Shown here: piece after piece, positions 2,817-23,878 of the stretch
Layout of the letters: every line of letters starts with the position of its first letter
Position numbering within the stretch: position 1 is the first letter of the stretch
DNA from: an uncultured Pelagibacteraceae bacterium
Lineage (GTDB): Bacteria; Pseudomonadota; Alphaproteobacteria; Pelagibacterales; Pelagibacteraceae
Length of the DNA stretch: 31,060 nucleotides
Reading direction: 5' to 3'
Assembly: GCA_902565325.1 (NCBI GenBank)
Contig: CACFEM010000005.1
Coordinates: 1-31,060 of the forward strand
The notes under the pieces: model-generated
What the model saw: only the letters and a program-made list of their open reading frames with translations
What the model was told of the DNA's origin: nothing
Databases searched by the model: none
Translations under genes and position numbers: made by a program

Positions 2817-3671
2817 TTATCTATTTATTCCTCTTAATCTTTCAGATCTTCTTCTTAATAACTCGGCACTTATTAGTATTAAAGTAGATAAAATAATTAA
2901 ACATGTTGCAACAGCAAGAATTGTCGGACTCAATTGCTCTCTTAAACCTGTCCACATTTGTATCGGAATAGTTGTGTTTTCTAAACCTGCTAAAAACAAC
3001 ACCACAACAACTTCATCAAAAGATGTAACGAATGCAAACAATCCACCAGAAATCACTCCTGGTAATATTAAAGGCAAGGTAACTTTCATAAATGTATTTA
3101 CTGGGTTACTACCTAAACTTGCTGCAGCTCTTGTTACACTGTGATCAAAACCAGAAAGTGTAGCAGTTACTGTAATCACAACAAATGGTGTTCCTAATAT
3201 TATATGAGCCAATACTATTCCTGTGTGTGTTGCAGCCAAACCAACTTTTGCCATAAAAAAGAAAATTGCAACTCCAGAAATAATTAAAGGTACAATCATT
3301 GGAGAGATTAAAGTAGCCATTATAATTCCTTTGTATGGCATATGTCTGCTACTTAACCCTAATGCAGCCAAAGTTCCTAAAATAATTGAGCCAATCGTTG
3401 CAAATATAGCAATTATAAAACTATTTTTTGCTGCTAATCCCCAAGGGTTTTTAGTTCCATAAATCATATCTTTATACCATCTTAAAGAAAATGCATCTGG
3501 ATCAAGATTTTTCATTCCCTCTGAAAAAACTAAAAACTCTTCTGCGTTAAATGATAATGGAAAAATTACAAACAAAGGTGCAATCAAAAAGAAAAATACA
3601 AAAGTACAAATTGCAATATAAACATAATGCCAAATTCTGTATCTTGTTTCCGTATAACTTGGTAATGCCAT
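2817..3671 (-). CDS. ABC transporter permease, PotC-like (spermidine/putrescine family)
   Basis: Inner-membrane permease of 284 aa, with six predicted membrane segments beginning near residues 15-38 (YIAICTFVFFFLIAPLFVI). The BPD_transp_1 coupling-loop signature reads AAASLGSNPVNTFMKVTLPLILPG (given here in two parts: AAASLGSNP, then FMKVTLPLILPG), near residues 182-205. Family knowledge says PotC pairs with PotB to form the translocation pore for polyamines or related cations, driven by PotA. The start lies 2 bp downstream of the PotB-like stop, so the two are translationally coupled. The substrate cannot be read from the permease; related transporters also carry opines, 2-aminoethylphosphonate or Fe(III). 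Confidence 0.9.
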   Translation of the reverse strand: MALPSYTETRYRIWHYVYIAICTFVFFFLIAPLFVIFPLSFNAEEFLVFSEGMKNLDPDAFSLRWYKDMIYGTKNPWGLAAKNSFIIAIFATIGSIILGTLAALGLSSRHMPYKGIIMATLISPMIVPLIISGVAIFFFMAKVGLAATHTGIVLAHIILGTPFVVITVTATLSGFDHSVTRAAASLGSNPVNTFMKVTLPLILPGVISGGLFAFVTSFDEVVVVLFLAGLENTTIPIQMWTGLREQLSPTILAVATCLIILSTLILISAELLRRRSERLRGINR

Positions 3672-3673
3672 AA

Positions 3674-4936
3674 TTATCCTAATTTAATATTATCAACTCC
3701 AACCAATTTATTATAAATCCAGTAAATAACTAAAACTCCACTAAGCAACATTAATCCCATGGCTGATGCAAAACTCCAATCTAAAGTTTGTTTCATATGA
3801 AATGCAATTTGATTACTAATTAAAGTTCCCGAGGCGCCACCAACTAGTGCTGGGGTAATGTAGTAACCAATTGCTAAAATAAATACTAATAAACACCCTG
3901 CTCCAATTCCTGGAATGGTTAATGGAAAGTAAACTTTCCAAAAAGCAACAAAAGGAGTTCCTCCTAGAGATTTCCCAGCTCTCATTAAGCTAGGTGAGAT
4001 AGTTTTCATAACACTGTAAAGCGGGAGAACCATGAAGGGTAATAATATTTGTGTCATGGCGACATAAGTCCCTACTTTATTATACATCATCTCAGGCCTA
4101 TTATCGTCTGCAACAAGACCTATCATAACAAAGAAGTCATTAACGACTCCTTGTTGCTGTAATAAAATCATCCAACTAGCAGTTCTTACTAATAAGGATG
4201 TCCAAAAAGGTAAAAGTACACAAATCATTAAAAGATTTGAATATTTCATAGGCAAAGTTGCAAGCAAATGTGCTATTGGATAGCCCATTAAGAAGCAAAA
4301 TAGTGTAACGAAGAAAGCTATTTCAAGTGTTCTCAACCAAAGAATTCTATGGATTCTCCTATCTTCTTCTACTTGAGCAATGCTACCATCTGCTGCGTAG
4401 TACATATCCATTCCTTTTAAATATTTTGCCATTGTGTAAGGAGGTGCAGTTCTTTTTATTGCTTGCCAATACTCTACATTTCTCCAACGTTTGTGAACTT
4501 TCATAATCTGTTCTTTAATGCTTATGCTTTCATCAATTTTTTTTCTTTTCACTTGTCTGAAGAGTTTTTTGGTTATGGAGTTAAAACCATTTTTTTCTTT
4601 ATTTAGTCTTTGACCAAGTTTTCCGTGCTCTTGTTTTTCAACAAGAACTTTAAAATCATAGTAAAAAGCAGAAAAAACTTCTTCTGGAGGCAATTCCTGC
4701 CCATCCCATTTTTCCATTTCTTTAAAAGTTTTAGGAAGCATATTTGTTATCATTTTATCGTCTATACTTCTGCTAAACATCTCTCCTATAGGAAAGACAT
4801 AGGTGATTATTAAAAATAAAAGTAATGGTGCTACAAGAAGAAAGGCTTTGATTTTATTTTTCTTCTCAGCTTTTTTTAAACTGACCTCTAATGGAATACC
4901 GTCAGTTGTTAATATTTGTTTTGTTTCAGAGCTCAT
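3674..4936 (-). CDS. ABC transporter permease, PotB-like, with long periplasmic insertion
   Basis: Inner-membrane permease of 420 aa, against about 275-310 aa for typical PotB. A first membrane segment at about residues 30-50 (AFLLVAPLLLFLIITYVFP) is followed by some 150 hydrophilic, Lys/Glu-rich residues before the second segment near 205 (EIAFFVTLFCFLMGYPIAH). The extra length therefore sits in one insertion, predicted to face the periplasm, between TM1 and TM2. The coupling loop (SLGGTPFVAFWKVYFPLTIPG) lies near residues 325-345, followed by further membrane helices. The upstream U-tract of a terminator hairpin ends at the base before the ATG, and no ribosome binding site is visible. Expression is probably low relative to the binding protein. 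Confidence 0.88.
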   Translation of the reverse strand: MSSETKQILTTDGIPLEVSLKKAEKKNKIKAFLLVAPLLLFLIITYVFPIGEMFSRSIDDKMITNMLPKTFKEMEKWDGQELPPEEVFSAFYYDFKVLVEKQEHGKLGQRLNKEKNGFNSITKKLFRQVKRKKIDESISIKEQIMKVHKRWRNVEYWQAIKRTAPPYTMAKYLKGMDMYYAADGSIAQVEEDRRIHRILWLRTLEIAFFVTLFCFLMGYPIAHLLATLPMKYSNLLMICVLLPFWTSLLVRTASWMILLQQQGVVNDFFVMIGLVADDNRPEMMYNKVGTYVAMTQILLPFMVLPLYSVMKTISPSLMRAGKSLGGTPFVAFWKVYFPLTIPGIGAGCLLVFILAIGYYITPALVGGASGTLISNQIAFHMKQTLDWSFASAMGLMLLSGVLVIYWIYNKLVGVDNIKLG

Positions 4937-5004: not shown

Positions 5005-6123
5005 TTATAGGCCTGCTTTCATTGCTTCCCACTTTTCACCGATCTCTGTTCCATTATCTGCCCAGAAGAAAGGGTCAACTAAGAAATAGTTCTTAGTGTT
5101 TGCAGGAGCTGTTGGCATTTGAGGCATCATTTCTGTTTTACCATCTTTGTACCATGGCTCACCAGCTTTGATTACATCAAGAGAAGATTTTCTCCATGGA
5201 GCATATGCAATGTACTTCGCACTACCAGCTAACATTTCAGTGTTAGTCATCATAGCTAAAGCTTTTTTAGCATTTGCTTCATCTGGACCACCTTTAACAA
5301 GTGCGAAATACTCATAGTCTAAACCTTGACCATCCCATACTTGTTTAATTGGAGCACCTTCACCTATTTCAGCGTTAAAGAATCTTCCATTCCAACCTGT
5401 TGCCATTACAACTTCACCTGCAACTAATAATTCAGGCGGTTGAGCACCAGCAGACCAGAATACACATCCACCATTAGGGTCTGTGCAAAGTTTCTTAATT
5501 TTGTTCATTGCTCTATCAAGACCACCTTCGGCTTCAAGTTTTCTGTAGATTAATTCTCCACCTTTACCCATTTTTACACCGTCAGCAGCTAAAGCGATTT
5601 CCAAGTTAGTTAAAGCGCTTTTGTAGATTGCTCTTTTTCCAGGAAATCTTTTTGTGTTAAAGAAGTCCTTAATTGTTTTAGGTTCTTTACCACCAAATGC
5701 TCTTGTATCAAAAGCATAGTTCCAAGAATATAAAATGTTACCTACAGCACATTCACTTGGCATTCCTGTGAAGAAGTCTTCACTTGCAGGAGTTCCATCT
5801 GGTGCAGCTGGGAAGTCTTTGTCAAAATCAAATTTAACAAATAAACCTTCATCACATCCGTTAATAGTATCGAATGCAAATAAGTCTATAATATCCCAAG
5901 TTATAGCACCTGCTTCTTTTTGTGCTTTGATTTCTGATAAACCACCAGAATAGTCAACCCAGTTGATTTCTATTCCAAGCGCTTTAGCAGTAGGATCACC
6001 GTACCCAAGCTTTTGAGACTCTGTGTAAGCTCCACCCCATGATGCTACTGTAACAGCAAAGGCTGAAGAAGTTAGAGATACAACAAAAGAAAGAGCAAGT
6101 AATAATTTACTTAGTTTTTTCAT
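5005..6123 (-). CDS. Periplasmic solute-binding protein, PotD-like
   Basis: Extracellular substrate-binding protein of the polyamine-type ABC system, 372 aa. It has a clear Sec signal peptide with probable cleavage after residue 23 (SSAFA), giving a mature start VTVASWGG. The beta-strand/Gly motif WGGAYTESQ, WDIIDL near 76-81 and the late PWRKSS are typical of the SBP_bac_8/PotD group. Four cysteines (90, 125, 213, 220) could form disulfides; C213 and C220 flank a short TDPNGG loop. A strong GGAGGA ribosome site lies just upstream, and a promoter-like element lies in the preceding 127 bp. A terminator follows, so this gene can be expressed on its own at high level, as expected for an abundant SAR11 binding protein. 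Ligand unknown; the operon's hydrolase suggests a cyclic or amide osmolyte as an alternative to putrescine or spermidine. Confidence 0.9.
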   Translation of the reverse strand: MKKLSKLLLALSFVVSLTSSAFAVTVASWGGAYTESQKLGYGDPTAKALGIEINWVDYSGGLSEIKAQKEAGAITWDIIDLFAFDTINGCDEGLFVKFDFDKDFPAAPDGTPASEDFFTGMPSECAVGNILYSWNYAFDTRAFGGKEPKTIKDFFNTKRFPGKRAIYKSALTNLEIALAADGVKMGKGGELIYRKLEAEGGLDRAMNKIKKLCTDPNGGCVFWSAGAQPPELLVAGEVVMATGWNGRFFNAEIGEGAPIKQVWDGQGLDYEYFALVKGGPDEANAKKALAMMTNTEMLAGSAKYIAYAPWRKSSLDVIKAGEPWYKDGKTEMMPQMPTAPANTKNYFLVDPFFWADNGTEIGEKWEAMKAGL

Positions 6124-6250: not shown

Positions 6251-7336
6251 TTATTTTGGGTCTAATGCCCGAGCATCAGCACTATTCCAGCCAATATTTA
6301 TATCTTGACTAACTTTTAATTCTAAATTGGAAGTGCTGTTAGGAACTTTAAGAATAAACTCAGAACTTCCTAATAAATTTAATCTAACTCTCGTATGATC
6401 ACCATGATAGATTACTTCCTCGATCTTTCCAGTAAACATGTTATCCATCTTGTCAGTTGGATTTATTAGAGCTCTTTCGGGTCTTAGTGAGACTGTTGTT
6501 TTTTCACCTTTAGACTTAACTGAAATTGGATTGGCTAGTATTTCTGAATTTGCCAACTTAACTTTGCATTTGTCTTTAGCAATATCAACCACCTCTCCAT
6601 TAAAAGTATTATTTTCACCAATAAACTCAGCAACAAAAGAATTTACTGGTTTCTCATAAAGTTCTGCAGGATTTGAAAGTTGTTGAACTTTTCCATCATT
6701 AAATACTGCAATCCTATTTGACATGGTTAATGCCTCACTTTGATCATGAGTTACGTATACAACTGTTACCCCAATACTTTCATGAATATGTTTAATTTCA
6801 TATTGCATACTTTCTCTTAAATTTTTATCCAATGCTCCCAAAGGTTCATCCATCAATACAACTGCCGGATCAAACACTAAGGCTCTTGCAACTGCAACCC
6901 TTTGTTGCTGACCGCCTGAAAGTTGAGCTGGCATTCTAGTTTCAAATCCACTTAATGAAACCATCGATAATGCTTTATCAACTTTTTTATCTATTTCATC
7001 TTTTTCAACTTTTCTTACTCTTAATGGAAAAGCTAAGTTTTCATAAACTGTCATATGTGGAAACAATGCATAGTTTTGAAAAACCATTCCGATACCTCTT
7101 TTGTGTGGAGGAATATTCGAAATTATGTTTCCATCTAATAATATTTCACCGTGAGTTGGTGTTTCAAAACCAGCTAACATCATTAAACAAGTTGTCTTAC
7201 CTGAACCAGATGGACCAAGCATTGTTATGAATTCGCCTTCTGCAATATCTAATTGAAGATCTTTGACGACAAGAACTTTACCGTCATAACTTTTATCTAC
7301 TTTATCAAATTTTACAAATTCTGGATTTTTAGACAT
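6251..7336 (-). CDS. ABC transporter ATP-binding protein, PotA-like
   Basis: Cytoplasmic ATPase of the Pot-type importer, 361 aa, the normal PotA length. Walker A is GPSGSGKTT at residues 41-49. The Q-loop is VFQNYALFPHMTV, the ABC signature LSGGQQQRVAVARAL, Walker B VVLMDEPLGALD, and the switch His lies in YVTHDQSEA. The C-terminal part (about 240-361) fits the TOBE regulatory domain of the polyamine/spermidine class. It is the third gene of the minus-strand unit, 45 bp after the M24 hydrolase, and a 127-bp promoter-bearing gap separates it from the binding protein. All four transporter parts (ATPase, binding protein, two permeases) are present, so the importer is complete. The substrate is not fixed by the ATPase. 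Confidence 0.93.
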   Translation of the reverse strand: MSKNPEFVKFDKVDKSYDGKVLVVKDLQLDIAEGEFITMLGPSGSGKTTCLMMLAGFETPTHGEILLDGNIISNIPPHKRGIGMVFQNYALFPHMTVYENLAFPLRVRKVEKDEIDKKVDKALSMVSLSGFETRMPAQLSGGQQQRVAVARALVFDPAVVLMDEPLGALDKNLRESMQYEIKHIHESIGVTVVYVTHDQSEALTMSNRIAVFNDGKVQQLSNPAELYEKPVNSFVAEFIGENNTFNGEVVDIAKDKCKVKLANSEILANPISVKSKGEKTTVSLRPERALINPTDKMDNMFTGKIEEVIYHGDHTRVRLNLLGSSEFILKVPNSTSNLELKVSQDINIGWNSADARALDPK

Positions 7337-7381: not shown

Positions 7382-8551
7382 TTAACTCTTTATATGAAGC
7401 TCTTTTGGAAAATTACAAAACAATTCTGATCCATTCTCTGTAACTCTAATAGCCTCTGAAGCTTCAACCCCCCAATCTCCAAACTGCATTACAGCTATCA
7501 TATGAAAACAAACGTTGGGCTCAAGCACTGTCATATCCCCTTTATATATATTAAGAGTATGTTCTCCCCAATCAGGTGGATAACCAATTCCAATCGAATA
7601 ACCTGTTCTAGATTTTTTTTCTATTCCATATTTATCTAAAATTTTCCAAAAAGACTGAGCAACATCATCTGCTGTATTACCTGGTTTGATTGCACTAATT
7701 CCAGCATTCAATGCTTCTATTGTTTTGTTCATTGTATCAATCTTTAATTGATTGGGTTTTCCAAGCAGAACTGTTCTAGCCATTGGAGCATGATATCGCT
7801 TATAAACTCCAGATAATTCAATAATTGTAGCCTCTCCTTCTACAAACTTGTCTTGTGTTGCTGTTAAATGTGATGCTGAAGTTCCTTTTCCAGTTGGAAG
7901 TAAAGTTGCAATACTAGAATATTCTCCTCCAAATTCCTCTGTACCATAAAATAAAGTCTTTTGAATTTCCCCCACTGCATCACACTGTCTAACTCCTGGT
8001 TTAATAACTTCCATAGCAGTTTTCATTCCTTTTTCTGAGATTTTGGCTGCAGATTTCATGAAACTTATCTCTGCATCTGATTTAACTAATCTTGCCCAAT
8101 TAACCAGACGATCGCTATCTTTGATTTTTGCATTAGGTAATCCTTGTATTATTTTTTCATAACAGAATGCAGTAAAATAATGTGCATCCATTTCAACACC
8201 TATATTAAGCTTGTCCCACTTTCTCTCTTTAATTATTTCAACTAAATAATCATAAGGATGTTTTGGCCATGTATGAATGTAGTTTTCATCATAAACAATT
8301 ACATTTTCGTTTTTTAAGTAAGTTTTTATGTATGCTCCACCTGCATCTTGTGCTCTTACAAAGCACAAAGGTTCATCTGCATTAATATGTACAATAGCAC
8401 ACTGAGCATAGTAAAAAGACCAAGCATCGTAGCCTGTTAAGTAATTCATATTGTTAGTGTCATGTGATATTAAAAGTTCGATGCCTTTTTCTTGCATCAT
8501 TTTTTTAACTTTTGTTAATCTCTGTTTATATTCTTCTTTAGTGAATAACAT
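7382..8551 (-). CDS. M24-family hydrolase resembling ectoine hydrolase DoeA/EutD
   Basis: Pita-bread-fold (creatinase/aminopeptidase P) hydrolase of 389 aa. The frame also opens at a TTG at 8554, but the ATG at 8551 shares one base with the upstream stop and is preferred. The N-terminal domain has NYLTGYDAWSFYYAQC; the C-terminal domain has LLPTGKGTSASHLT, GYPPDWGEHTL and WGVEASEAI. The aspartates that bind metal in M24 peptidases are not evident: the usual Asp-containing strand reads IIELSGVYKRYHAPMART. This fits non-metallo members such as creatinase and the DoeA/EutD ectoine hydrolases, to which the motifs and length correspond well. It is translationally coupled to an EutA-like gene and followed by a Pot-type importer. 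The other ectoine genes (EutB, EutC, EutE/DoeB) are not in the window, so another cyclic amide or N-acyl substrate is possible. Confidence 0.75.
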   Translation of the reverse strand: MLFTKEEYKQRLTKVKKMMQEKGIELLISHDTNNMNYLTGYDAWSFYYAQCAIVHINADEPLCFVRAQDAGGAYIKTYLKNENVIVYDENYIHTWPKHPYDYLVEIIKERKWDKLNIGVEMDAHYFTAFCYEKIIQGLPNAKIKDSDRLVNWARLVKSDAEISFMKSAAKISEKGMKTAMEVIKPGVRQCDAVGEIQKTLFYGTEEFGGEYSSIATLLPTGKGTSASHLTATQDKFVEGEATIIELSGVYKRYHAPMARTVLLGKPNQLKIDTMNKTIEALNAGISAIKPGNTADDVAQSFWKILDKYGIEKKSRTGYSIGIGYPPDWGEHTLNIYKGDMTVLEPNVCFHMIAVMQFGDWGVEASEAIRVTENGSELFCNFPKELHIKS

Positions 8552-9297
8552 CAATTTACCTGGAATAATTTTCCAAACCCCTCTACTGAATTATTTTTTT
8601 TTATTTTTACAAGGGTATCCCAAATTAATGCCTGATTACTAGATAAGACTATTGTATTTAATTTTTTTTCTAATTTATCAATTATTGGCAACACTGGTAA
8701 AGCGGTACAAGAAACAAAGAGTGCTTCTGCCCCATTTAAATCTATTCCAGATAGAACATTATATAAATAATTCTGATCAACTTTTCCGATATCGTAATCT
8801 GCTTCTATATCAAAGTAAGAATTTGAAGTAACTTCAAATCCTTCGTTTTTAAAATATTCTAAAACTTCATCGTTAAGTTTTTTGCTATAAGGTGTAAATA
8901 GACTTATTTTATTTATATTTAATTTCTTTAAAGCTTTGATTGCAGCGGTACTTGGAGTTGTCACTTCTGCCATAGGTTTTGCAGCTTTTACTTTTTTTTC
9001 AATAGACTCGTAGCCTGCTGCTATTGTTCCAGATGTGCAGCCATAAACAACACAATCAATATCCTGATCAGGTAATATATCTTTTGTTACCTCGGTTACT
9101 TTGTTTGACATTTTGATCAAATTTTCTTTTGTTAGTGGGTTATAGCATTCGATACGATTTACAAAGAAATCAACTTCTCTGTCTTTAATTACGTTTATAA
9201 AATCTCTTTCAATCATAAAATCGCTTGCAAGCGCAATAAGTCCAATTCTTGGATTTGATTTAGTAACATATTTAGGATCTATTTTTGTTGAATTCAT
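8551..9297 (-). CDS. Asp/Glu racemase-superfamily protein, EutA/maleate isomerase/AMDase-like
   Basis: Protein of 248 aa from the aspartate racemase, maleate isomerase and arylmalonate decarboxylase superfamily. Both catalytic cysteines are visible, Cys87 in VVYGCTSGT and Cys197 in FVSCTALP, in the spacing typical of maleate isomerase and EutA. The protein opens with PRIGLIALASDF and has the hinge TTPSTAAIKALKKL in the middle. EutA is a gene of the ectoine-utilisation operons of rhizobia, where it accompanies the EutD hydrolase, and here it directly precedes an EutD/DoeA-like hydrolase. It is the first gene of the minus-strand unit and lies 58 bp from the divergent EamA gene. The reaction is uncertain; racemisation, isomerisation or decarboxylation of the hydrolysis product are all possible. 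Confidence 0.75.
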   Translation of the reverse strand: MNSTKIDPKYVTKSNPRIGLIALASDFMIERDFINVIKDREVDFFVNRIECYNPLTKENLIKMSNKVTEVTKDILPDQDIDCVVYGCTSGTIAAGYESIEKKVKAAKPMAEVTTPSTAAIKALKKLNINKISLFTPYSKKLNDEVLEYFKNEGFEVTSNSYFDIEADYDIGKVDQNYLYNVLSGIDLNGAEALFVSCTALPVLPIIDKLEKKLNTIVLSSNQALIWDTLVKIKKNNSVEGFGKLFQVN

Positions 9298-12617: not shown

Positions 12618-13752
12618 CAGAATTTTTTAAATATCTTAGTCTTCCAATAATTTCATCTCGATCCATGTAATAACCTTGTAAATGCCTATGTCCTGAGTTT
12701 GGATCATATTCAGTTCTACCGTGTAATAATCGTCTATTGTTAAAAGAAAAAATATCACCTGGTCCTAATCTAAATTTAATCTGGAATTGATCGTCATGAA
12801 GTAAATTTCCAAATCGGTGATGAGCTTTGTAAACTTTATCCATCAAATCTGGATGACAGTCTAAAGCATCCATGGTTGCTACGCTAAACCGAATATCATG
12901 GTAATCATTATCTTTTGTTAGAGATATCGCGGGTGCGTAATAACTTCTAACAGACTCTTGTGTATAATCCATGTCTCTAAATTTTAAATGAACGTTTACT
13001 AGCGTATCAAATATTTCTTTCTCATTTTTTCTCAAATAGTCTGCTACTGCAAAGCCGTCTACGGCGGACGAGTCTCCTCCAGTTGCAGAATTTACTAAGC
13101 AATGAAGAAATTGATATCCAGGTGGTGTTTCAAACCATGGTAAATCCATATGATTTCTTAAGGCATGTGCTGTGTAAGCAGAATTATTTGGTTTAGGAAT
13201 GTTAATTACTTCAAAAGGTGTTTTAAAAAAAGTTTCTCTGGTATGGCTAATTCTATTTAAAATTTTAAAGCCAGAATTATTTTCAGTTGGAGCATTTTTT
13301 ACTATAGCAATTCCAGTATGATGTAAAAGTTCTAACCATCTGATAAGCCCTTCATCTGAACTCATAATTTCATCATGCTCAATCTCGATTGACTTCAAGT
13401 CATTTTGTAAAGAGTTATCCCAAAGTTGATAAGGAGATTTATATTTTAGATTGTTTTTTATTGTATAGCAGTTTTCTCTTAACCAATTTTGGTCGTAATA
13501 ACTAATGTGGTCACCTTCACTCCATTCAATTTCAAGCTTGCCTTCATTATTTACTGCAAATTTTTTTGGATTAATATTGTTTGATACTTTTAAAATATTA
13601 AACATTCTATGACGTGAGTCTTTATCGTGTGCAGTTGGACAATTGTCTCTTAGCCATAAATAATTAAATTTACTTTTTTTTCCATCGCTCCAGTCAACTT
13701 CTAAATTTGTAGAATTTTTAGTTATATTTTTAATTGTAAAATTTTGTTCCAT
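12601..13752 (-). CDS. Gamma-butyrobetaine dioxygenase-like 2-oxoglutarate/Fe(II) oxygenase (TauD/TfdA fold, N-terminal DUF971 domain)
   Basis: Oxygenase of 383 aa, close to the size and layout of gamma-butyrobetaine dioxygenase, which makes L-carnitine. The N-terminal DUF971-type domain (about 1-95) holds WLRDNCP and WLRENC. The double-stranded beta-helix domain has the iron ligands His201 and Asp203 (NHMD) and His344 (RRLLHGR), and Arg356 for 2-oxoglutarate. AYT at 192-194 and the C-terminal RHLQGYYMD resemble the enzyme's substrate cage and end better than trimethyllysine dioxygenase does. Of the four zinc ligands known in human BBOX1 (Cys38, Cys40, Cys43, His82), only Cys38 and His82 are kept; the others are Thr40 and Asp43, with His42 nearby. 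The ATG shares one base with the stop of the class II aldolase gene. Trimethyllysine or another betaine remains possible. Confidence 0.8.
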   Translation of the reverse strand: MEQNFTIKNITKNSTNLEVDWSDGKKSKFNYLWLRDNCPTAHDKDSRHRMFNILKVSNNINPKKFAVNNEGKLEIEWSEGDHISYYDQNWLRENCYTIKNNLKYKSPYQLWDNSLQNDLKSIEIEHDEIMSSDEGLIRWLELLHHTGIAIVKNAPTENNSGFKILNRISHTRETFFKTPFEVINIPKPNNSAYTAHALRNHMDLPWFETPPGYQFLHCLVNSATGGDSSAVDGFAVADYLRKNEKEIFDTLVNVHLKFRDMDYTQESVRSYYAPAISLTKDNDYHDIRFSVATMDALDCHPDLMDKVYKAHHRFGNLLHDDQFQIKFRLGPGDIFSFNNRRLLHGRTEYDPNSGHRHLQGYYMDRDEIIGRLRYLKNSVNSNQ

Positions 13753-16137: not shown

Positions 16138-17091
16138 ATGAGCACTGATAATAACTCAAAAGGAATTCTTTTAATAATTGCAGCAATGACTTTGTTTGCA
16201 ATGCAAGACTCTTTAATTAAATTTATTTTTGAAAAAGCAGCACTTTATGAAATCTTCTTTGGAAGATATTTTGTTGCTGCAATTTTACTGTTTTGTTACA
16301 TCAAATTTAGAGGTCAAAAAGTTTCTTTAAAAACCTATTATCCTTTTTTAACGTTTGTTAGAGTAATTCTTCATTTTTTAGCCTTTTCTGCATTCTTTAT
16401 TTCTTTAACCTATATGCCTTTAGCTACAGCAAATGCTTTATTTTTCTCATGTCCATTTTTCGTCTCAATTTTTGCGAAATTTTTTTTGAAAGAATTTATT
16501 GGTATAAGAAGATGGTCTGCAATTGTGTTTGGTTTTATAGGTGTGTTTATTGTTCTTAATCCAAACTTTGATGATTTTGAATATAAAAGTCTACTACCAG
16601 TTTTGTGCGCATTTTTTTATGCAGCTTCAATGACAATAACAAAATATACGTCTGATAAAGATGACGTTAATACTCAACTTTTTTATTTCTACCTGATAGC
16701 GCTAATACTATGTGGGATTATCTTCGTATTTATGGGCAATGGTCAACTTAATAATCCTAATTTTGACCCCACTACTCAATTTATATTTAGAGAATGGTTT
16801 TCAAACTTTGATTATACTTGGAAGTTTATTTTATTTTTTGGTTTTGCTGCATCAATTGCTTTTGTATGTATTTTTTCAGCGTATATAGTTGCTTCACCAT
16901 CTGTTGTTTCATTGTTCGAATATTCTTTAATTATAATGTCGATGATCCCTGGTTATTTTCTATTTAACGAAATACCTTCGGCTAGAACCTTTATTGGAGT
17001 TGCGTGCATAATAGCAGCTGGAATATATATTTATATGAGAGAGCGAGTTAGAGATCAATATATTGCAACTGAAACTCCGGTAAGAAGATGA
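16138..17091 (+). CDS. EamA/DMT-superfamily transporter
   Basis: Membrane protein of 317 aa with ten predicted helices in two EamA repeats. The first starts ILLIIAAMTLFAMQDSLIKF and the second lies after residue 150 (SLLPVLCAFFYAASMTITKY). The AMQDSLIKF and ATANALFFSCPFF motifs resemble the alphaproteobacterial riboflavin/S-adenosylmethionine-type DMT group, but the substrate cannot be assigned. The C-terminus is charged (YMRERVRDQY). It begins 40 bp after the thioesterase, and its stop overlaps the next ATG by 4 bp. It is unlike the EamA protein at 9356 in sequence, so these are not recent duplicates. Confidence 0.9.
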   Translation: MSTDNNSKGILLIIAAMTLFAMQDSLIKFIFEKAALYEIFFGRYFVAAILLFCYIKFRGQKVSLKTYYPFLTFVRVILHFLAFSAFFISLTYMPLATANALFFSCPFFVSIFAKFFLKEFIGIRRWSAIVFGFIGVFIVLNPNFDDFEYKSLLPVLCAFFYAASMTITKYTSDKDDVNTQLFYFYLIALILCGIIFVFMGNGQLNNPNFDPTTQFIFREWFSNFDYTWKFILFFGFAASIAFVCIFSAYIVASPSVVSLFEYSLIIMSMIPGYFLFNEIPSARTFIGVACIIAAGIYIYMRERVRDQYIATETPVRR

Positions 17092-18056
17092 GTAAAAGGT
17101 ATATACCTACAATCAATATATCATCACTAATTAAAAATAATTTTGAAACTCAGAATGCATTTAAAACAATTAAAGAAATTGAAAAAGCTTGTGTCAATGT
17201 AGGTTTTTTTCAAATTACTGGTCATGGAATTAATCTTAAAGAAATTAAAAAAACTTGTGAAGTTGGAAATAAATTTTTTAATTCACCAGACAGTAATAAA
17301 AGAAAATTATCACCTAAAAAATGGAATAAAAAAAATAAAAATTTATACAGAGGATATTTCCCTAATGATGTGAACGGAAAAGAAGGATTAGATATAGGTG
17401 ATTTAAAGGTAACTAAAAAATATTCTTCAAATATAAATAATCAGTATATAGAGCATCTTAATCTGAGTTTATGTTTTAATAAAAACTCAATTAAAATTTT
17501 AAATAAATATTTTGACAATATTTATAGATTAAGTGAAACTTTATTTAAAAGTGTAATAAAACTTAATAAAAAAAATCCTGATATTTCTAGTGCAGCTTTT
17601 TCAAGATTAAAAACATTAAGTACATTAAGATTTAATTATTATCCTAATCAAACAAAACCGGTAGAAGTATCTAAACAAGATGGGGTTGCTCTTGGATGCG
17701 AAACACATGTTGATAGTGGTGTATTCACAGTTCTCTATCAAGATAGAAAAGGTGGATTGCAGGTACAAAATAGAAAAAATAAAAAATGGTATGATGTGCC
17801 ATTTAACAAAAAAGCTTTAGTAGTAAACACTGGTAGAGCTTTGGAGTTTCTAACCAAAGGAAAATTTAAAGCAACTAATCATAGAGTTTTGTGGAATAAA
17901 AGTAAGAGACTGTCTGTTCCTTTTTTCTTTGAACCTTCCTATGATTTCAAAATGAGCCAATCATTTTTAAATGGAAGTAAATTCAAAAATAATGGTGAAA
18001 TTTATGAGAAATTTCTTAACAAATCTTTAAAGAAATTTATTGAATATCAGCGTTAG
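17088..18056 (+). CDS. 2-oxoglutarate/Fe(II)-dependent oxygenase, isopenicillin N synthase family
   Basis: Protein of 322 aa with the N-terminal DIOX_N region (YIPTINISSLI, GFFQITGHGI at 39-48) and the C-terminal 2OG-FeII_Oxy domain. The iron-binding triad is His207 and Asp209 in ETHVDSG and His265 in TNHRV; the 2-oxoglutarate anchor is Arg274 with Ser276 (RLSVPFF). GGLQVQNRKNKKWYDVP is the usual strand before the distal His. Family members hydroxylate, desaturate or cyclise amino acids and many small molecules, so the reaction is unknown. The 4-bp overlap with the EamA gene suggests transporter and oxygenase act on the same compound. The protein is exceptionally Lys/Asn-rich, in line with the AT-rich genome. 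Confidence 0.9.
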   Translation: MSKRYIPTINISSLIKNNFETQNAFKTIKEIEKACVNVGFFQITGHGINLKEIKKTCEVGNKFFNSPDSNKRKLSPKKWNKKNKNLYRGYFPNDVNGKEGLDIGDLKVTKKYSSNINNQYIEHLNLSLCFNKNSIKILNKYFDNIYRLSETLFKSVIKLNKKNPDISSAAFSRLKTLSTLRFNYYPNQTKPVEVSKQDGVALGCETHVDSGVFTVLYQDRKGGLQVQNRKNKKWYDVPFNKKALVVNTGRALEFLTKGKFKATNHRVLWNKSKRLSVPFFFEPSYDFKMSQSFLNGSKFKNNGEIYEKFLNKSLKKFIEYQR

Positions 18057-18161: not shown

Positions 18162-19331
18162 ATGAAATTTGGATATTTCTGCAATACTACAAACTGGACA
18201 CACAAACCTTATCATCAGTTATTAGATGAGACTAAAGAGATCACTGAATACTGCGATCAAAATAAATGGAATTCTATTTGGTTTACTGAGCATCATTTTA
18301 ATCATGAAGGAATGGAATCTTGTACTAATCCATTGATGATGGGTGCAGATGCGGCTGCTAGAACGAAAAATATTAGAATAGGTCAGGCTGCAAATGTTAT
18401 TACTTTCCATAATCCAATAAGATTAGCAGAAGATATTGCAACATTAGACCAGCTTTCAAAAGGAAGAGTTGAGGTAGGTGTAGCAAGAGGAATCTATGGA
18501 AGAGAAGCAATAAATTTAAACAAAGAGGCTGATTTAAAAGATCAGGCTAAAAATTTCAGATTATTTGCGGAAACTTTAGAAGTATTAAAGAAAGCATGGA
18601 GTGAAAAATTTTTCAGTCACCAAGGAGAATTTTATACTTATCCGTCGCCAAATTATGTCTGGCAGCATGATATGAGTCCTCCTAGTGAAGAATTTATGAA
18701 TATGGAAGACAGTACTATGAAAAAAATTAGTGTTGTTCCACAGCCATATCAACAACCACATCCTCCAATTCATCAAGTCGTTGATGGAATTAGATCGATT
18801 GAATGGGCTGCTGAAAATAATATCAATGTTATCATGTGGATACCAACTGTGAAAGCTTTGAAGTCAAAGTTTGAAGCTTATAAAAATAAAAGATCAGAGG
18901 TAACAAAGAAAAATATACCACTTGGTGAAGGTGTTTCTCTTGTAAGAGATATGTTTGTTGCAGATACGATGGAAGAAGCAAAAGAGAAAGCCGGTGAACA
19001 TATGGTAAATTATATGAGATGGGTTTGTCATTGGAGAGGTTTAGGAAACCATATGGATCCAGGTGAAGAATTACCAGAGACAAAAGGTAAATTAGATTTA
19101 TTAAATTATGAATTTTTACATAAAAGAAACATGTTATTTGGAACACCCGAATATGTAATTGATAAAATTCATGAATTAAAATCTGAACTCAATTTACAAA
19201 ATTTACAAGTTTGGTCTAATTTTCCAGGTGTGAAGCATAAAGATTGTATGAAAAGTATAAAACTTTTCACAGAGAAAGTTATGCCTCACTTCCAAGATGA
19301 TTTTGATACTGAAGTAAAAAAAGTTTCGTGA
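18162..19331 (+). CDS. LLM-class flavin-dependent monooxygenase, trigonelline monooxygenase (TgnB)-like
   Basis: Bacterial luciferase-like TIM-barrel monooxygenase of 389 aa. An upstream GTG at 18120 is in frame, but the AAAGGAGG site and the family N-terminus (MKFGYFCNTTNW) support the ATG at 18162. Visible family motifs are WFTEHHFNHEG, RIGQAANVITFHNP, DQLSKGRVEVGVARG and YGREAINLNKEAD; LFGTPEYVIDKI comes late. Such enzymes use reduced FMN from a separate reductase and O2. The overall pattern, length and neighbours (alpha/beta hydrolase, aldehyde dehydrogenase) resemble TgnB, which opens the N-methylpyridinium ring of trigonelline. No flavin reductase (TgnA) is in the window. The isomer homarine or another N-heterocycle is equally possible. 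The stop overlaps the next GTG start by 4 bp. Confidence 0.85.
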   Translation: MKFGYFCNTTNWTHKPYHQLLDETKEITEYCDQNKWNSIWFTEHHFNHEGMESCTNPLMMGADAAARTKNIRIGQAANVITFHNPIRLAEDIATLDQLSKGRVEVGVARGIYGREAINLNKEADLKDQAKNFRLFAETLEVLKKAWSEKFFSHQGEFYTYPSPNYVWQHDMSPPSEEFMNMEDSTMKKISVVPQPYQQPHPPIHQVVDGIRSIEWAAENNINVIMWIPTVKALKSKFEAYKNKRSEVTKKNIPLGEGVSLVRDMFVADTMEEAKEKAGEHMVNYMRWVCHWRGLGNHMDPGEELPETKGKLDLLNYEFLHKRNMLFGTPEYVIDKIHELKSELNLQNLQVWSNFPGVKHKDCMKSIKLFTEKVMPHFQDDFDTEVKKVS

Positions 19332-21031
19332 ATAAAAAACGAAAAAGAATTAGCGGCGGACAAGCTGCTGTTCAATCATTAAAAAAAGAGAGAGTAAAAC
19401 ATGTTTTTGGACTTATTGGTTCAGCAACAATGGAAATGTTTGATGCTCTCTATCATGAAAAAAATATAAAATTTATTGGTGTCAGAGATGAAAGAACTGG
19501 ATCCCATATGGCTGATGGTTATGCAAGAGCCTCGAATAAACCTGGCGTAATTATTGCAGGCCAAAATGGACCTGGTGCTACTAATTTAGTTACAGGTATT
19601 GCTCAAGCAAAAGCAGCTTTTTCACCAGTAGTTGCGCTTGCAGGTTCATATTCAACTAAAGATAAAATGGAAGATGCATTTCAAGGTTTAGATCAACAGT
19701 CTTTGTTTACACCAATTACAAAAAAAACTTGGACTATAAAAAATTCAAAAAATATTCCTAATATTATGAGTAATGCCTTTAATTTAGCTATGAGTCCAAG
19801 AAGAGGACCTGTTTGTGTAAATTTACCAAGGAATATTTTAGCAGCTTCTAACTCTTACAATATAAATACCAAAAAACCTTCATTTGTTTCAGAGAGTAAA
19901 TTAAAAGGTGATAAAGAAAAAATTAAAAAAACTGCAAATTTAATTAGTTCATCGAACAAAACAGTTATTATTGTTGGTGCTGGAATAAAATATAATTCTA
20001 AATATAAAGAGATAATAAAATTAGCAGAATTTTGTAATTTACCAATAGTAACTGCAGCTGGACATGGAGATGCAATTCCATTTAATCACAAATTACATGC
20101 AGGGCAAATGGGCCCTAGAGGTAATCCAGTTGCATCAAGACTGGTTAAAGAGGCAAATGTTATTTTGGCAATTGGTACAAGACTTGGGTTTAACTCAACT
20201 TTCTACTCATATGAAAACATTAATAAAAAAGCAAAAATAGTACATATTGAATTAGAGAAAAAAATGCTTGGTAAATATTTTCCAATAAAGATTGGTATTC
20301 ATGCAGATGCTGCAACAGCAACAAAACAAATTTATGAGCAAATTAAAAAAAACAAAATCGAAATTGATGTTAAAAATTGGACAAATTTATATTTAAAAGA
20401 AAGAAGTAAATATTTAATTGATAGGGATAACAATAATCTAGGAAAAAATTTTCCTATACAGCCAAAGGGTTTATTTAAAAAACTCAGAAAAGCTTTACCT
20501 AAAAATTCTGCAATCACTCTAGATGCTGGAACGCTTTGTTTACAAGCCACAGACGCCCTTGAATATTACGATCCTCCTTCTTTATTTACACCTTTAGATT
20601 TTGGTTTAGTTGGTTTCTCTTTTGCTTGTGGTCTTGGTGTTAAAATTGCAAAACCAACAAAACATGTTGTAAGTCTTATGGGTGATGGTGGATTCGGTAT
20701 GACAATATCGGAATTAAGTACTGCTGTAGAATATGGAATAAACACAACGACTATTGTGATGAACAATCAAAGTTGGGGTGCTGAAAAAGCTTATCAAAAA
20801 GATTTTTTTGGAAAAAGATACTTGGGTGCAGATATAACAAGTCCATCTTTTGATAAAGTTGCTGAACTTTACGGAGCAAAAGGATTTAAGGTCACAAAAA
20901 TTTCACAAATTGATGAAGCAGTGAGAGCTGCTATTAAAACAAATAAGCCATCTGTTATTGATGTTGATGTGGATCCAAAAGCATTATACAGTTTTAGAAG
21001 AGATAGTTTCAAGCACAGAAAAAAAAAATGA
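19328..21031 (+). CDS. Thiamine-diphosphate-dependent enzyme, acetolactate synthase/sulfoacetaldehyde acetyltransferase-like
   Basis: Full-length three-domain ThDP enzyme of 567 aa, starting with GTG inside the previous stop. The pyrimidine-binding domain carries the catalytic Glu55 in GVRDERTGSHMADGYAR, then AGQNGPGATNLVTG. The central domain (about 190-340) has the TVIIVGAGI strand. The pyrophosphate-binding domain has the GDGGFGMTISEL motif near residue 451 and the NNQSWG end near 478, which bind Mg-ThDP. The best resemblance is to the acetolactate synthase/Xsc branch, but the expected FAD or acetyl-phosphate chemistry cannot be judged by eye. It is not an obvious branched-chain IlvB, since no small subunit follows. 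In context it probably cleaves or ligates a 2-oxoacid or aldehyde derived from ring cleavage. Such an enzyme is not part of the described trigonelline pathway. Confidence 0.88.
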   Translation: MNKKRKRISGGQAAVQSLKKERVKHVFGLIGSATMEMFDALYHEKNIKFIGVRDERTGSHMADGYARASNKPGVIIAGQNGPGATNLVTGIAQAKAAFSPVVALAGSYSTKDKMEDAFQGLDQQSLFTPITKKTWTIKNSKNIPNIMSNAFNLAMSPRRGPVCVNLPRNILAASNSYNINTKKPSFVSESKLKGDKEKIKKTANLISSSNKTVIIVGAGIKYNSKYKEIIKLAEFCNLPIVTAAGHGDAIPFNHKLHAGQMGPRGNPVASRLVKEANVILAIGTRLGFNSTFYSYENINKKAKIVHIELEKKMLGKYFPIKIGIHADAATATKQIYEQIKKNKIEIDVKNWTNLYLKERSKYLIDRDNNNLGKNFPIQPKGLFKKLRKALPKNSAITLDAGTLCLQATDALEYYDPPSLFTPLDFGLVGFSFACGLGVKIAKPTKHVVSLMGDGGFGMTISELSTAVEYGINTTTIVMNNQSWGAEKAYQKDFFGKRYLGADITSPSFDKVAELYGAKGFKVTKISQIDEAVRAAIKTNKPSVIDVDVDPKALYSFRRDSFKHRKKK

Positions 21032-21615
21032 ATTTAGAGTTAAGAAAATTTGCAAAATTTGTTGATAAAACTTTCATCGAAGGTGGTAAAGAGGCAAAAG
21101 AACCAGTCCTGCTAGTTTCTGTAGCGGCGGTATTTAAAAATCCATGGCACGGACAAGGGTTTGTTGAGAATTTAAGACCTGCAATTTTAGATTTTGCTCC
21201 AAAATTAGGAGATTTACTTGTACCGGAACTAATCAAAGAAATAGGTTCACCAGAAAAAATATTAGCTTATGGAAAGGCAGGCATTGTTGGTTTAAATGGG
21301 GAGATTGAACATGCTTCTGCTTTTATACATACATTAAGATTTGGAAATAAATTTAGAGATGCTGTTGGAGGAACTTCTTATTTGAGCTTCACTAATACAC
21401 GAGGACCAGCTGGGTCAAAAATTTCAATACCTATGATGCACAAAACAGACTCTGGTTTAAGGCCCTACTATTTAACTCACGAATTTACTATTCATGATGC
21501 TCCATTTGATGATGAAGTTGTTATTGCTATTGGAGGTGCTTCTAGTGGAAGAGCGCACGCTAGAACAGGTGATAGATATCAAGATATGAAAGAAATGGGA
21601 ATTGAGCCTAAATAA
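21028..21615 (+). CDS. PF06684 'amino acid synthesis' family protein (DUF1185)
   Basis: Protein of 195 aa that fits the AA_synth/DUF1185 family over its whole length. Its end GRAHARTGDRYQDMKEMG is characteristic of that family, as are the conserved KNPWHGQGFVENL near 37-49, GKAGIVGLNGEIEHA near 82-96, and IPMMHKTDSGLRPYY. No biochemical function is established for the family to my knowledge. The genes often sit beside oxygenases and hydrolases in catabolic clusters, and the conserved His/Asp/Arg residues suggest an enzyme. Here it is overlapped by 4 bp with the ThDP gene and followed by a hydrolase, so it probably acts on an intermediate of the same pathway. Confidence 0.82.
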   Translation: MNLELRKFAKFVDKTFIEGGKEAKEPVLLVSVAAVFKNPWHGQGFVENLRPAILDFAPKLGDLLVPELIKEIGSPEKILAYGKAGIVGLNGEIEHASAFIHTLRFGNKFRDAVGGTSYLSFTNTRGPAGSKISIPMMHKTDSGLRPYYLTHEFTIHDAPFDDEVVIAIGGASSGRAHARTGDRYQDMKEMGIEPK

Positions 21616-21621
21616 TTCTTG

Positions 21622-22404
21622 ATGACAACTGGGACTACTGAAACAGGAACATATTATTTTTTTAATAAAAAAGAGCAAGATATACCAATAGTATTTATTC
21701 ATGGAGTGGGGTTAACCTATGAAATTTGGCAACCCCAATTAGAATTTTTTAAAAATTACAGCACACTTTCATACGATATATTAGGACATGGTAAATCTTC
21801 ATTAAATAAAGACAAAATTACTTTTGATGACTTTTCAGATCAATTAATTGATCTAATTGATCATTTAAAAATAAAAAAAATACATGTTGTTGGTTTCTCG
21901 ATTGGTTCATTGATTGCAAGAAATTTTGCTACAAAATTTAGTGACCGTTTAAAATCTTTAACACTTTTATGTTCGATCTACAAAAGATCAGAGGAACAGC
22001 AAAAAATAGTAAATCAAAGATTTGAGCAAGCAAAAAAAGAATTAAAACTTTCTAAACAAGCGTTAAAGAGATGGTTTACAGATAAATATCTTGAAAATAA
22101 CCCAAGTATTTATGAAAAAATAAGTAATATTTTATCTTCTAATAACATGAAAAATTTTCTTAAAGTTTATGAACTTTTTGTCAATCACAAAAATGATGAA
22201 AATTTTGACAAAATAAATGTTAATACTTTAATTATGACTGGAGAATTTGATATTGGTTCAACAGTTGAAATGTCAAATGAATTAAACAAAATTATTACTA
22301 ACAGTCAATTAAAGATAATTAAAGATGGCAAACATCTTTGTGGTATTGAATGTGCGAATGATGTAAATTTATCAATCAAAAACTTTGTTGAACAAAATGA
22401 GTAA
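21622..22404 (+). CDS. Alpha/beta hydrolase, TgnD/RutD-like
   Basis: Alpha/beta-hydrolase-fold protein of 260 aa. A TTG at 21619 precedes the ATG at 21622, which I prefer. The oxyanion-hole motif HGVGLTYEIW starts at residue 27, the nucleophile Ser93 lies in VVGFSIGSL, the acid in GEFDIGS and the His in DGKHLCG. The LGHGKSS strand end is typical of the family. In trigonelline catabolism the corresponding hydrolase (TgnD) cleaves the ring-opened N-methylformamido-methylene succinate. The size and its position between the oxygenase and aldehyde dehydrogenase genes fit that role. A general esterase or lactonase is the alternative. It overlaps the next gene by 11 bp. Confidence 0.85.
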   Translation: MTTGTTETGTYYFFNKKEQDIPIVFIHGVGLTYEIWQPQLEFFKNYSTLSYDILGHGKSSLNKDKITFDDFSDQLIDLIDHLKIKKIHVVGFSIGSLIARNFATKFSDRLKSLTLLCSIYKRSEEQQKIVNQRFEQAKKELKLSKQALKRWFTDKYLENNPSIYEKISNILSSNNMKNFLKVYELFVNHKNDENFDKINVNTLIMTGEFDIGSTVEMSNELNKIITNSQLKIIKDGKHLCGIECANDVNLSIKNFVEQNE

Positions 22405-23878
22405 ATTAAAACATTATAAAATGTATATTGATGGAGAATGGATAGATTCCGAAAGTAAAAAAACTTTCGAAACACTAAACCCTGAAAATAATGAACCTTG
22501 GGCAACAGTACCTGAAGCTAGCGCTAAAGATGTAGATAAGGCAGTCAAAGCAGCACAAAAAGCTTTTGAGGGAGAATGGCCAAAATTACTTCCAAGAGAC
22601 AGGGCAAAATTTTTAAGAGCAATTGGAGATCAATTAAGAGCCAATGCTGAAATGCTTGGAGAAATTGAAACGATTGATACTGGAAAACTTTTTAGAGAAA
22701 CAAAAAAACAAGCAATTTATATTGCAGAATATTATGACTACTATGCTGGATTAGCTGACAAAGTCGAGGGTACTGTTCTACCAATTGATAAACCAAATAT
22801 TCAAGCCATCACTACAAGAATTCCTATTGGAGTAGTTGCAGCAATTATTCCCTGGAATTCACAAATGTTTTTAACTGCAACAAAATTAGCGCCAGCTTTA
22901 GCAATGGGAAATACTGTTGTTATTAAATCTTCAGAACTTGCTCCAGCAGTTTTATTTGAGTTTGCAAAATTAATTGAAAAAACTGGAATACCTAAAGGAG
23001 TTGTTAATGTACTAACTGGTTTTGGTGATCCATGTGGCAAAGCTTTGACTACGCATAATTTAGTTGAAAAAATTGCTTTTACTGGAGGGCCTGAAACTGC
23101 AAGACATATAATAAAAAATTCGGCTGAAAATCTTTCTGAAGTAAGTTTAGAATTAGGTGGCAAAAGCCCAGTTGCTGTATTTGATGATGCAGAACAAGAA
23201 AATGCTATTAATGGAATTACAGCAGGAATATTTGGTGCAAGCGGTCAGAGTTGTATAGCTGGTTCAAGACTTTATATTCAAAAAGGAATTTATGATGAAT
23301 TTTTAGATAAACTTTCTAAACGCGCACTAAAAATTAAAATCGGAGCTCCAATGGATGCCAAAACAGAGATGGGTCCCCTTAGTAGTTTCAAACAATTAGA
23401 AGTTATTGAAAAGAATATAAAAAATACTATTGATCAAGGTGGTAAAATCAGATGTGGAGGTAAGAGAGATTCCTTTTCAAATAAAGGATATTACTTTCCT
23501 CCAACAATTATTGAATGTGATAATCATAATCTTCCAGTAGCAGAAAACGAATTGTTTGGACCTGTGTTATCAGTGATGAAATTTGATACTGAAGAAGAGG
23601 TAATTGAAAAAATGAATGATAATCAATATGGATTATCATCAGGTGTATACACTAGCAATCTTGCACGTGGAATGAGAGTTTCTAAAGCAATCAGAGCAGG
23701 AATTACTTTTGTTAATACTTATAGATTAATTTCACCTTCAGCTCCATTTGGAGGAATTAAAGACAGTGGCTATGGCAAAGAAGCAGGTCTAGACTCTATT
23801 AAAGATTACACCAGAGTAAAAACAACTTGGTTTTACACTTCAGACGAGCCTACGCTTGATCCTTTTTCTATAAGATAA
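22394..23878 (+). CDS. Aldehyde dehydrogenase, TgnC-like
   Basis: NAD(P)-dependent aldehyde dehydrogenase of 494 aa. The frame is open from a TTG at 22385, but the ATG at 22394 gives the normal N-terminus MSKLKHYKMYIDGEW. Cofactor site IIPWNSQMF (150-158), FTGGPETARH (228-237), Glu252 in SLELGGKSP and the catalytic Cys286 in ASGQSCIAGSR are intact. The ring-aldehyde type subgroup (EYYDYYAGLADKVEG, LISPSAPFGGIKDSGYG) includes the hydroxybutyrolactone dehydrogenase TgnC of trigonelline catabolism, the role suggested here. It is the last gene of the plus-strand five-gene unit and converges on panB with only 12 bp between stops. Confidence 0.9.
   Translation, partial: KMSKLKHYKMYIDGEWIDSESKKTFETLNPENNEPWATVPEASAKDVDKAVKAAQKAFEGEWPKLLPRDRAKFLRAIGDQLRANAEMLGEIETIDTGKLFRETKKQAIYIAEYYDYYAGLADKVEGTVLPIDKPNIQAITTRIPIGVVAAIIPWNSQMFLTATKLAPALAMGNTVVIKSSELAPAVLFEFAKLIEKTGIPKGVVNVLTGFGDPCGKALTTHNLVEKIAFTGGPETARHIIKNSAENLSEVSLELGGKSPVAVFDDAEQENAINGITAGIFGASGQSCIAGSRLYIQKGIYDEFLDKLSKRALKIKIGAPMDAKTEMGPLSSFKQLEVIEKNIKNTIDQGGKIRCGGKRDSFSNKGYYFPPTIIECDNHNLPVAENELFGPVLSVMKFDTEEEVIEKMNDNQYGLSSGVYTSNLARGMRVSKAIRAGITFVNTYRLISPSAPFGGIKDSGYGKEAGLDSIKDYTRVKTTWFYTSDEPTLDPFSIR

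Follow-up and report, generated by a model that had tools for sequence, protein, structure and literature searches.

A recurring SAR11 gene cassette pairs Tgn-like proteins with a separate subfamily of luciferase-like monooxygenase and lies near a divergent importer operon

The window analysed here is a 31,060-nucleotide stretch (contig CACFEM010000005.1 of assembly GCA_902565325.1) from an uncultured member of the Pelagibacteraceae. Positions 18162..23878 hold five genes, encoding a luciferase-like monooxygenase (LLM) of the flavin-dependent class, a thiamine diphosphate (ThDP) enzyme, a PF06684 protein, an alpha/beta hydrolase and an aldehyde dehydrogenase (ALDH), which an earlier note on this DNA had taken for a unit resembling N-methylpyridinium (trigonelline or homarine) catabolism. 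We found that the five-gene arrangement is a recurring cassette of SAR11, which is among the most abundant groups of ocean bacteria, and not a product of chance. Judged by its protein sequences, the cassette is Tgn-like, resembling the trigonelline operon of Acinetobacter, with a different oxygenase. New here is its linkage to a divergent operon of EutA/EutD-like and ATP-binding cassette (ABC) importer genes. The best reading is that together they probably import a nitrogen compound that is methylated, and probably heterocyclic, and break it down oxygenolytically.

All five open reading frames (ORFs) are present on the plus strand and each product scored above the Pfam gathering score for its class (Table 1), which bears out the genes, order and protein classes first described. 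The close packing was also confirmed: the LLM and ThDP genes overlap by 4 bp, as do the ThDP and PF06684 genes, the gap between the PF06684 and hydrolase genes is 3 bp with a TTG start at 21619 or 6 bp with an ATG start at 21622, and the hydrolase and ALDH genes overlap by 8 bp with ATG at 22397 or by 20 bp with TTG at 22385. The SAR11 origin held as well, the best 80 of 379 related stretches, selected for LLM closeness (94-100% identity), all being titled Pelagibacteraceae or Ca. Pelagibacter. The LLM-ThDP-PF06684-hydrolase-ALDH series was complete and ordered in 73 of these 80 near-identical loci, and in the remaining seven the contig stops before or inside the first missing gene. One 90% cluster of window-type LLM (P0001) comprises 4985 database sequences.

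A wider sample consisted of 197 genomes from the family of G001, the nearest comparison genome (34% of sampled words in common with the window), a family that we took as Pelagibacteraceae from the matches. The LLM is distributed patchily, with a match in 44 of the 197 genomes, a count that includes fragments and broken copies (G294, G321, G361). Forty loci were taken in, those of G001 and 39 others, leaving out G294, G321, G361 and G417. LLM-(ThDP)-PF06684-hydrolase-ALDH stood in order at 38 of the 40, so the gene order, whose recurrence the earlier note had proposed to check, is kept in other SAR11 genomes. At one of the two exceptions (L204) the cassette is cut off by the contig end, and the other (L210) has a short hydrolase ORF (9766-10104, 112 aa) and no ALDH despite 4.9 kb of downstream sequence. 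The ThDP gene was found in 15 of the 40 loci, always between the LLM and PF06684 genes, and its presence on the LLM tree requires two changes. Accordingly, we regard the four-gene core as the unit and the ThDP gene as an optional part. Three irregular copies, namely that at L210, a ThDP gene broken into two ORFs (L177:6297-7997) and an LLM with in-frame stops (G321:C12), may each reflect decay, misassembly or a sequencing error.

The LLM family is broad and the substrate assigned here is a deduced one, which would also suit a detoxifying or biosynthetic LLM oxygenase in a unit that is not catabolic. However, the constant company of ALDH and hydrolase, the linked importer and the patchy presence (44/197) fit catabolism better, and we consider this alternative improbable.

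As a yardstick for the cassette proteins we used plasmid NZ_CP094644.1 of Acinetobacter sp. PK01 (L164), annotated with tgnA, tgnB and tgnC. Its gene order is GntR, PF06684, hydrolase, tgnA, tgnB, tgnC, with a succinate-semialdehyde dehydrogenase gene nearby; the record has no tgn names for the PF06684 and hydrolase genes, and our labels TgnF and TgnD for them are by position. According to PMC7913881, TgnF is a homologue of a DUF1185/PF06684 protein and stimulates TgnE. The window PF06684 protein was 55% identical to that of the L164 tgn operon, and in a tree with two deep groups the window and tgn-operon proteins fell together in a 20-row group (SH-aLRT 100); by these sequence measures the window protein is of TgnF type. 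With the window excluded, an LLM gene lay within 7 kb for 17 of the 19 rows of this group compared to 0 of 23 rows of the other group, although several of the loci counted had been chosen for holding an LLM or PF06684 match and the surroundings came from part of the match places only (20 regions and a further seven). Among rows of the cassette group that came from a search with PF06684 only (L159, L160, L162, L222, L228, L234, L236), five of seven had an LLM gene within 7 kb. The other group includes tandem pairs (L217, L218, L219, L220, L225, L226), and several of its loci lie near ABC ATPase matches, none with an LLM gene within 7 kb.

The window ALDH was 52% identical to TgnC but only 34% to the succinate-semialdehyde dehydrogenase of the same plasmid, and it grouped with TgnC in one 21-row clade (SH-aLRT 88), nearest to the ALDH of a Parasedimentitalea locus (L145). 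The hydrolase was 31% identical to the hydrolase of the L164 tgn operon, with the G-x-S-x-G and His motifs aligned. The earlier note had placed the LLM, hydrolase and ALDH in the classes of TgnB, TgnD and TgnC; with the PF06684 protein added, four of the five proteins fall in Tgn classes, one more than the three it had counted, but the LLM departs from TgnB itself, as described below. It had overlooked that the PF06684 protein is itself of the TgnF family, that the ThDP enzyme is dispensable, and that a divergent importer operon is linked to the unit.

The LLM itself was distant from TgnB of the Acinetobacter plasmid, with 23% identity by BLAST and 26% in the alignment, and about 20 of its residues form an insert with no counterpart in TgnB. 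A tree of 66 rows (quick search, no bootstrap; RutA and SsuD set as outgroup) placed it among SAR11 proteins and their relatives, in a clade separate from the 12-row TgnB group (SH-aLRT 99). TgnB and the LLM proteins of L145 and L146 were 42-46% identical among themselves. No TgnB orthologue was found in 194 SAR11 family genomes, 12 of which gave a match, none above 35% identity. Two other oxygenases were tried and rejected: the pyrimidine oxygenase RutA (19.7 bits against a TIGR03612 cut-off of 498.3) and the alkanesulfonate monooxygenase SsuD (32.2 bits against a TIGR03565 cut-off of 518.2), both of which sit on long branches in the tree. By clade position and model score, the LLM represents a subfamily separate from TgnB, RutA and SsuD. 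The expectation that it would cluster with TgnB-like enzymes therefore failed, and the grouping with alkanesulfonate or pyrimidine oxygenases that had been named as the refuting outcome was not seen either.

These results bear directly on whether the unit could be a tgn operon like that of Acinetobacter, serving trigonelline. Its PF06684 protein belongs to the tgn-operon subfamily and its ALDH is TgnC-like, yet the LLM lies outside the TgnB clade, the unit has no TgnA-type gene, the hydrolase identity is just 31%, and the tgn-type operons of other alphaproteobacteria (L143, L144, L159, L162, L228, L234) use a TgnB-group LLM. We reject membership of the tgn system on account of the LLM clade and the missing reductase; trigonelline, one of the two substrates first suggested, is disfavoured, and we regard such an operon as highly improbable.

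The supply of reduced flavin was examined in ten SAR11 genomes. The PF01613 flavin reductase was absent from all five near-complete genomes that carry the LLM (G322, G330, G350, G313, G365) and also from two of five that do not (G208, G304), but was present in 13 of 14 control genomes. PF00175 gave no match in any of the ten, and an SsuE-type PF03358 protein was found in every one; judged by its family, this protein could be the source of FMNH2 for the LLM. A TgnB-type operon of a small-genome alphaproteobacterium (G260, 1.4 Mb; L162:5144-9073) likewise has no flavin reductase match adjoining, and its LLM is 56% identical to a tgn-type LLM of Leisingera.

The linked operon begins with the EutA-like gene and continues with an M24 hydrolase gene and the genes of a PotA-type ABC importer (Table 1). 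The EutA-like gene was present in 73 of 194 family genomes and in 38 of the 44 LLM genomes, an association with a Fisher p of 4e-14 that ignores shared ancestry and draws on 197- and 194-genome samples that may not be fully nested. Where it and the LLM gene share a contig they are divergent in 31 of 31 genomes; in the other seven genomes they are on separate contigs. The gap between them is 8,864 bp in the window. Across these genomes 16 gaps were within 5.9 kb (four of them within 174 bp, minimum 144 bp), seven were 8.8-8.9 kb and eight were 16-52 kb. Such an arrangement suggests that the operon and the cassette are in shared use. The DNA separating the two in the window carries quaternary-amine-type genes, one of which encodes a gamma-butyrobetaine-dioxygenase-like protein (Table 1). 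At three SAR11 loci (L205:6609-7814, L201, L250) the EutA-like gene has as its neighbour a second M24-family protein, a divergent one with about 24-26% identity to that of the window.

Membership of the linked operon in ectoine utilisation was considered and rejected, the EutA-like protein scoring 199.1 bits against a TIGR02990 (EutA) cut-off of 318 and the M24 hydrolase 456.5 bits against a TIGR02993 (EutD/DoeA) cut-off of 613. A substrate lacking the N-methyl group (an ectoine-like cyclic amidine, for instance, or a lactone or some other small heterocycle) would still accord with the resemblance of these genes to ectoine utilisation proteins and with a PF06684 gene that PMC7913881 places in a coumarin-degradation operon. 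The sub-cut-off scores stand against such a substrate, as does a Pfam scan of 30 window proteins, which gave no EutB- or EutC-class protein; in addition, some ThDP and LLM relatives adjoin demethylation-type genes. We judge it to be on the unlikely side.

An N-methyl nitrogen compound as the substrate class has some support from gene context, the main ground being that demethylation-type genes and importers recur near relatives of the cassette in a few genomes. Outside SAR11, an alphaproteobacterial locus (L150, G212) has the order FAD oxidase, LysR, Rieske oxygenase, flavin reductase, LLM, PF06684, hydrolase, ALDH; its LLM and PF06684 proteins were 54% and 61% identical to those of the window, and the names AmaA-like (168/600 bits) for the FAD oxidase and GbcA-like (123/670 bits) for the Rieske oxygenase are both below the model cut-offs. 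The L150-type LLM was found only in G212 at E 1e-60, both in a sample of 299 Pseudomonadota genomes and in G212's own family of 14 genomes; at E 1e-20 there were 2266 relatives, and the 120 matches listed were mostly 58-77% identical. A second locus (L152, G227) carries the LLM, PF06684, hydrolase and a TgnC-group ALDH together with a Pot-type importer. At L234, a true tgn-type operon, the flanking importer is a relative of that of the window.

The ThDP enzyme scored 395.6 bits against NF005713 (sulfoacetaldehyde acetyltransferase, Xsc-type; cut-off 620) and 392.8 bits against TIGR00118 (acetolactate synthase; cut-off 538.35), below the cut-off in both cases. The closest relative found outside SAR11 was 57% identical (L246, G177), and its locus holds an ALDH, an LLM of the L145 type, a hydrolase, the ThDP enzyme and an FAD/GcvT enzyme; an MttB-type methyltransferase gene lies there on the opposite strand. 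Two Ruegeria records combine a ThDP enzyme of 39% identity with an MttB-family gene, a class III aminotransferase and two FAD-dependent oxidoreductases, and L247 has MttB-type genes near its ThDP relative.

What is supported directly here is gene content, order, conservation, clade membership and importer linkage; from these we infer all the steps of a possible pathway. The divergent PotA-type importer would take up a cationic or zwitterionic, probably N-methylated heterocyclic, nitrogen compound, and the EutA/EutD-like enzymes might act on it or on its ring-opened product. The LLM, supplied with FMNH2 by a reductase encoded elsewhere (perhaps of SsuE type), would use O2 to open the ring, producing an aldehyde together with an N-acyl or N-formyl group. 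The TgnC-like ALDH would oxidise the aldehyde and the hydrolase would cleave the amide or enamide to a small amine and an acid, with the PF06684 protein assisting one step, as reported for TgnF. Where present, the ThDP enzyme might carry a 2-oxo acid or dicarbonyl product onward. We give about even chances that the unit is a SAR11 catabolic cassette working like the Tgn pathway on another substrate. Only tentatively do we propose the fuller version, to which we give less than an even chance: an uncharacterised, self-contained SAR11 route for a methylated N-heterocyclic osmolyte, in which the PotA-type importer and EutA/EutD-like enzymes stand back-to-back with a new LLM subfamily assisted by proteins like TgnC, TgnD and TgnF, the ring-opened product is passed on in one clade by an additional ThDP enzyme whose relatives belong to methylated-amine clusters, and the LLM operates in a streamlined genome without a dedicated flavin reductase.

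A number of observations weigh against such a ring-opening route. No characterised protein falls within the window LLM's tree clade, which leaves TgnB, at 23% identity, as the source of the ring-opening assignment. Neither a regulator gene nor a TgnA-type flavin reductase gene is among the unit's five genes. The PF06684 protein is no proof of an N-methyl substrate, since its family also accompanies coumarin breakdown. The ThDP gene is missing from 25 of the 40 SAR11 loci, and two of the four ThDP relatives viewed in their genomes (L248, L249; 33-34%) had no MttB-type match nearby among the references used. Another 35 genomes have the EutA-like module but no LLM, which implies that the module has another use. 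Of ten non-SAR11 loci with a window-clade LLM, only L150 and L152 have PF06684, hydrolase and TgnC-group ALDH genes within 7 kb; at the other eight (LLM 31-46%) the helper genes were not found within that distance, so the helper partnership is not general to the LLM clade. The neighbour evidence as a whole comes from few genomes.

Within the proposed route, homarine (N-methylpicolinate) is a fair candidate substrate. As a special case of that route, the LLM would cut the ring next to the nitrogen, and the ALDH and hydrolase would lead to an N-methyl amino diacid towards N-methylglutamate. The 194 SAR11 genomes hold no TgnB orthologue, yet the window-type LLM is in 44 of 197, and ring-opened homarine would presumably require the same enzyme classes. 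The title of a 2026 paper, cited in PMC13390433, announces a conserved homarine pathway in environmental bacteria, and PMC13390433 itself has Mgd taking part in homarine catabolism. On the other side, PMC8269262 argues that homarine is, on steric grounds, an improbable substrate for the Tgn oxygenase, although the window LLM is not TgnB. The cassette holds no imine or ketimine reductase, and SAR11 genome G322 has a further cassette of LLM, ALDH and hydrolase (L216) that competes for the role. Taken together, a SAR11 homarine operon of this form seems to us rather unlikely. Ferrer-Gonzalez et al. are said to have described in Nat Microbiol in 2026 an operon homABCDER with SAR11 among its carriers; if the hom operon of the 2026 paper is the SAR11 cassette, the finding is already known. 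A literature search that covered few subscription papers returned, among the matches listed, no paper tying the SAR11 LLM cassette to a substrate.

Table 1. Genes of the cassette, the linked operon and their surroundings in the window
Feature	Position	Strand	Model match
LLM-class flavin monooxygenase, 389 aa	18162..19331	+	PF00296 Bac_luciferase 151.9 bits
ThDP enzyme, acetolactate-synthase/Xsc-like, 567 aa	19328..21031	+	PF02776/PF00205/PF02775, TPP_enzyme N/M/C 115.3/100.8/131
PF06684 (DUF1185, AA_synth) protein, 195 aa	21028..21615	+	PF06684 212.9 bits
Alpha/beta hydrolase, 260 aa from ATG	21622..22404	+	PF00561 Abhydrolase_1 81.7 bits
Aldehyde dehydrogenase, 493 aa from ATG	22397..23878	+	PF00171 Aldedh 537.5 bits
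2-oxoglutarate/Fe(II) oxygenase, directly upstream of LLM	17088..18056	+	PF03171/PF14226
EamA-type transporter, overlapping the 2-oxoglutarate oxygenase gene	16138..17091	+	PF00892
Gamma-butyrobetaine-dioxygenase-like protein	12601-13752	-	319 bits, cut-off 414.75; TmpA 270.6 of 400
EutA-like protein of the Asp/Glu racemase / arylmalonate decarboxylase family; heads the linked operon	8551..9297	-	PF17645 76.8 bits
M24 hydrolase, EutD/DoeA-like	7382..8554	-	PF00557
PotA-type ABC ATPase	6251..7336	-	TIGR01187 potA 383.7 bits, cut-off 355.6
ABC substrate-binding protein	5005..6123	-	PF13416 91.7 bits
ABC permease, PotB-like	3674..4936	-	PF00528; PotB model 162.4 bits, cut-off 348
ABC permease	2817..3671	-	PF00528 56.2 bits

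Immediately upstream of the cassette, the 2-oxoglutarate oxygenase gene lay on the same strand and no more than 3.5 kb away in 17 of the 40 SAR11 loci, and is thus a frequent but not obligatory companion; an EamA match was present in 70 of the 80 near-identical loci. No Rfam match at the gathering score was found anywhere in the window. DNA identity between the window and G001 (L149), which lacks the ThDP gene, was 93-97% up to the 2-oxoglutarate oxygenase gene and 67-84% from the LLM gene onward. L192 showed a similar step (86-98% before the LLM gene, 69-85% after), and L181 was a mosaic with 89-97% in the flanks, LLM and ALDH and 78-87% from ThDP to hydrolase. The simplest reading of the steps at the LLM gene seems to be recombinational swapping of the cassette between SAR11 genomes.

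Other LLM cassettes were seen in SAR11. In G322 (L216:6417-14255) the neighbours of the second, different ALDH-LLM-hydrolase cassette are an alternative oxidase and an ABC importer of glycine-betaine type (OpuAC). Three loci (L183:2755-6434, L184, L185) have another LLM and hydrolase grouped with genes like those for 3-hydroxyacyl-CoA dehydrogenase and BKACE; this group lies some 8 kb away from the window-type cassette and possibly belongs to a carnitine pathway.

Knowing the substrate would connect a gene set that recurs in SAR11 with one compound of the dissolved organic nitrogen pool and supply gene markers for its flux, and would help to assign a function to the LLM-linked half of PF06684. 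Compared to known systems, the cassette shares with the Acinetobacter tgn operon the PF06684 subfamily, a TgnC-like ALDH, an alpha/beta hydrolase, an LLM oxygenase and tight packing. It differs in order (PF06684-hydrolase-reductase-LLM-ALDH in tgn), in having a ThDP enzyme, in lacking the reductase and the adjoining GntR gene, and in an LLM from another clade. Plasmid pW43B of Parasedimentitalea marina (L145) has the same LLM/ALDH/hydrolase/PF06684 set, an ALDH that is the sister of the SAR11 ALDHs (55%) and an ABC importer annotated adjoining, whereas its LLM belongs with TgnB (42% identity) and its annotated genes include a CoA-transferase, a carnitinyl-CoA dehydratase and 3-keto-5-aminohexanoate cleavage genes. 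The Rut pathway also employs an LLM-superfamily oxygenase, and RutD is likewise an alpha/beta hydrolase, but the window LLM falls far short of the RutA and SsuD model cut-offs. With ectoine eutA/eutD(doeA) the linked operon shares EutA- and EutD-like proteins, but at sub-cut-off scores and with no EutB/EutC-class protein among the 30 scanned. The homarine pathway would share with the proposed route a marine substrate of the N-methylpyridinium class.

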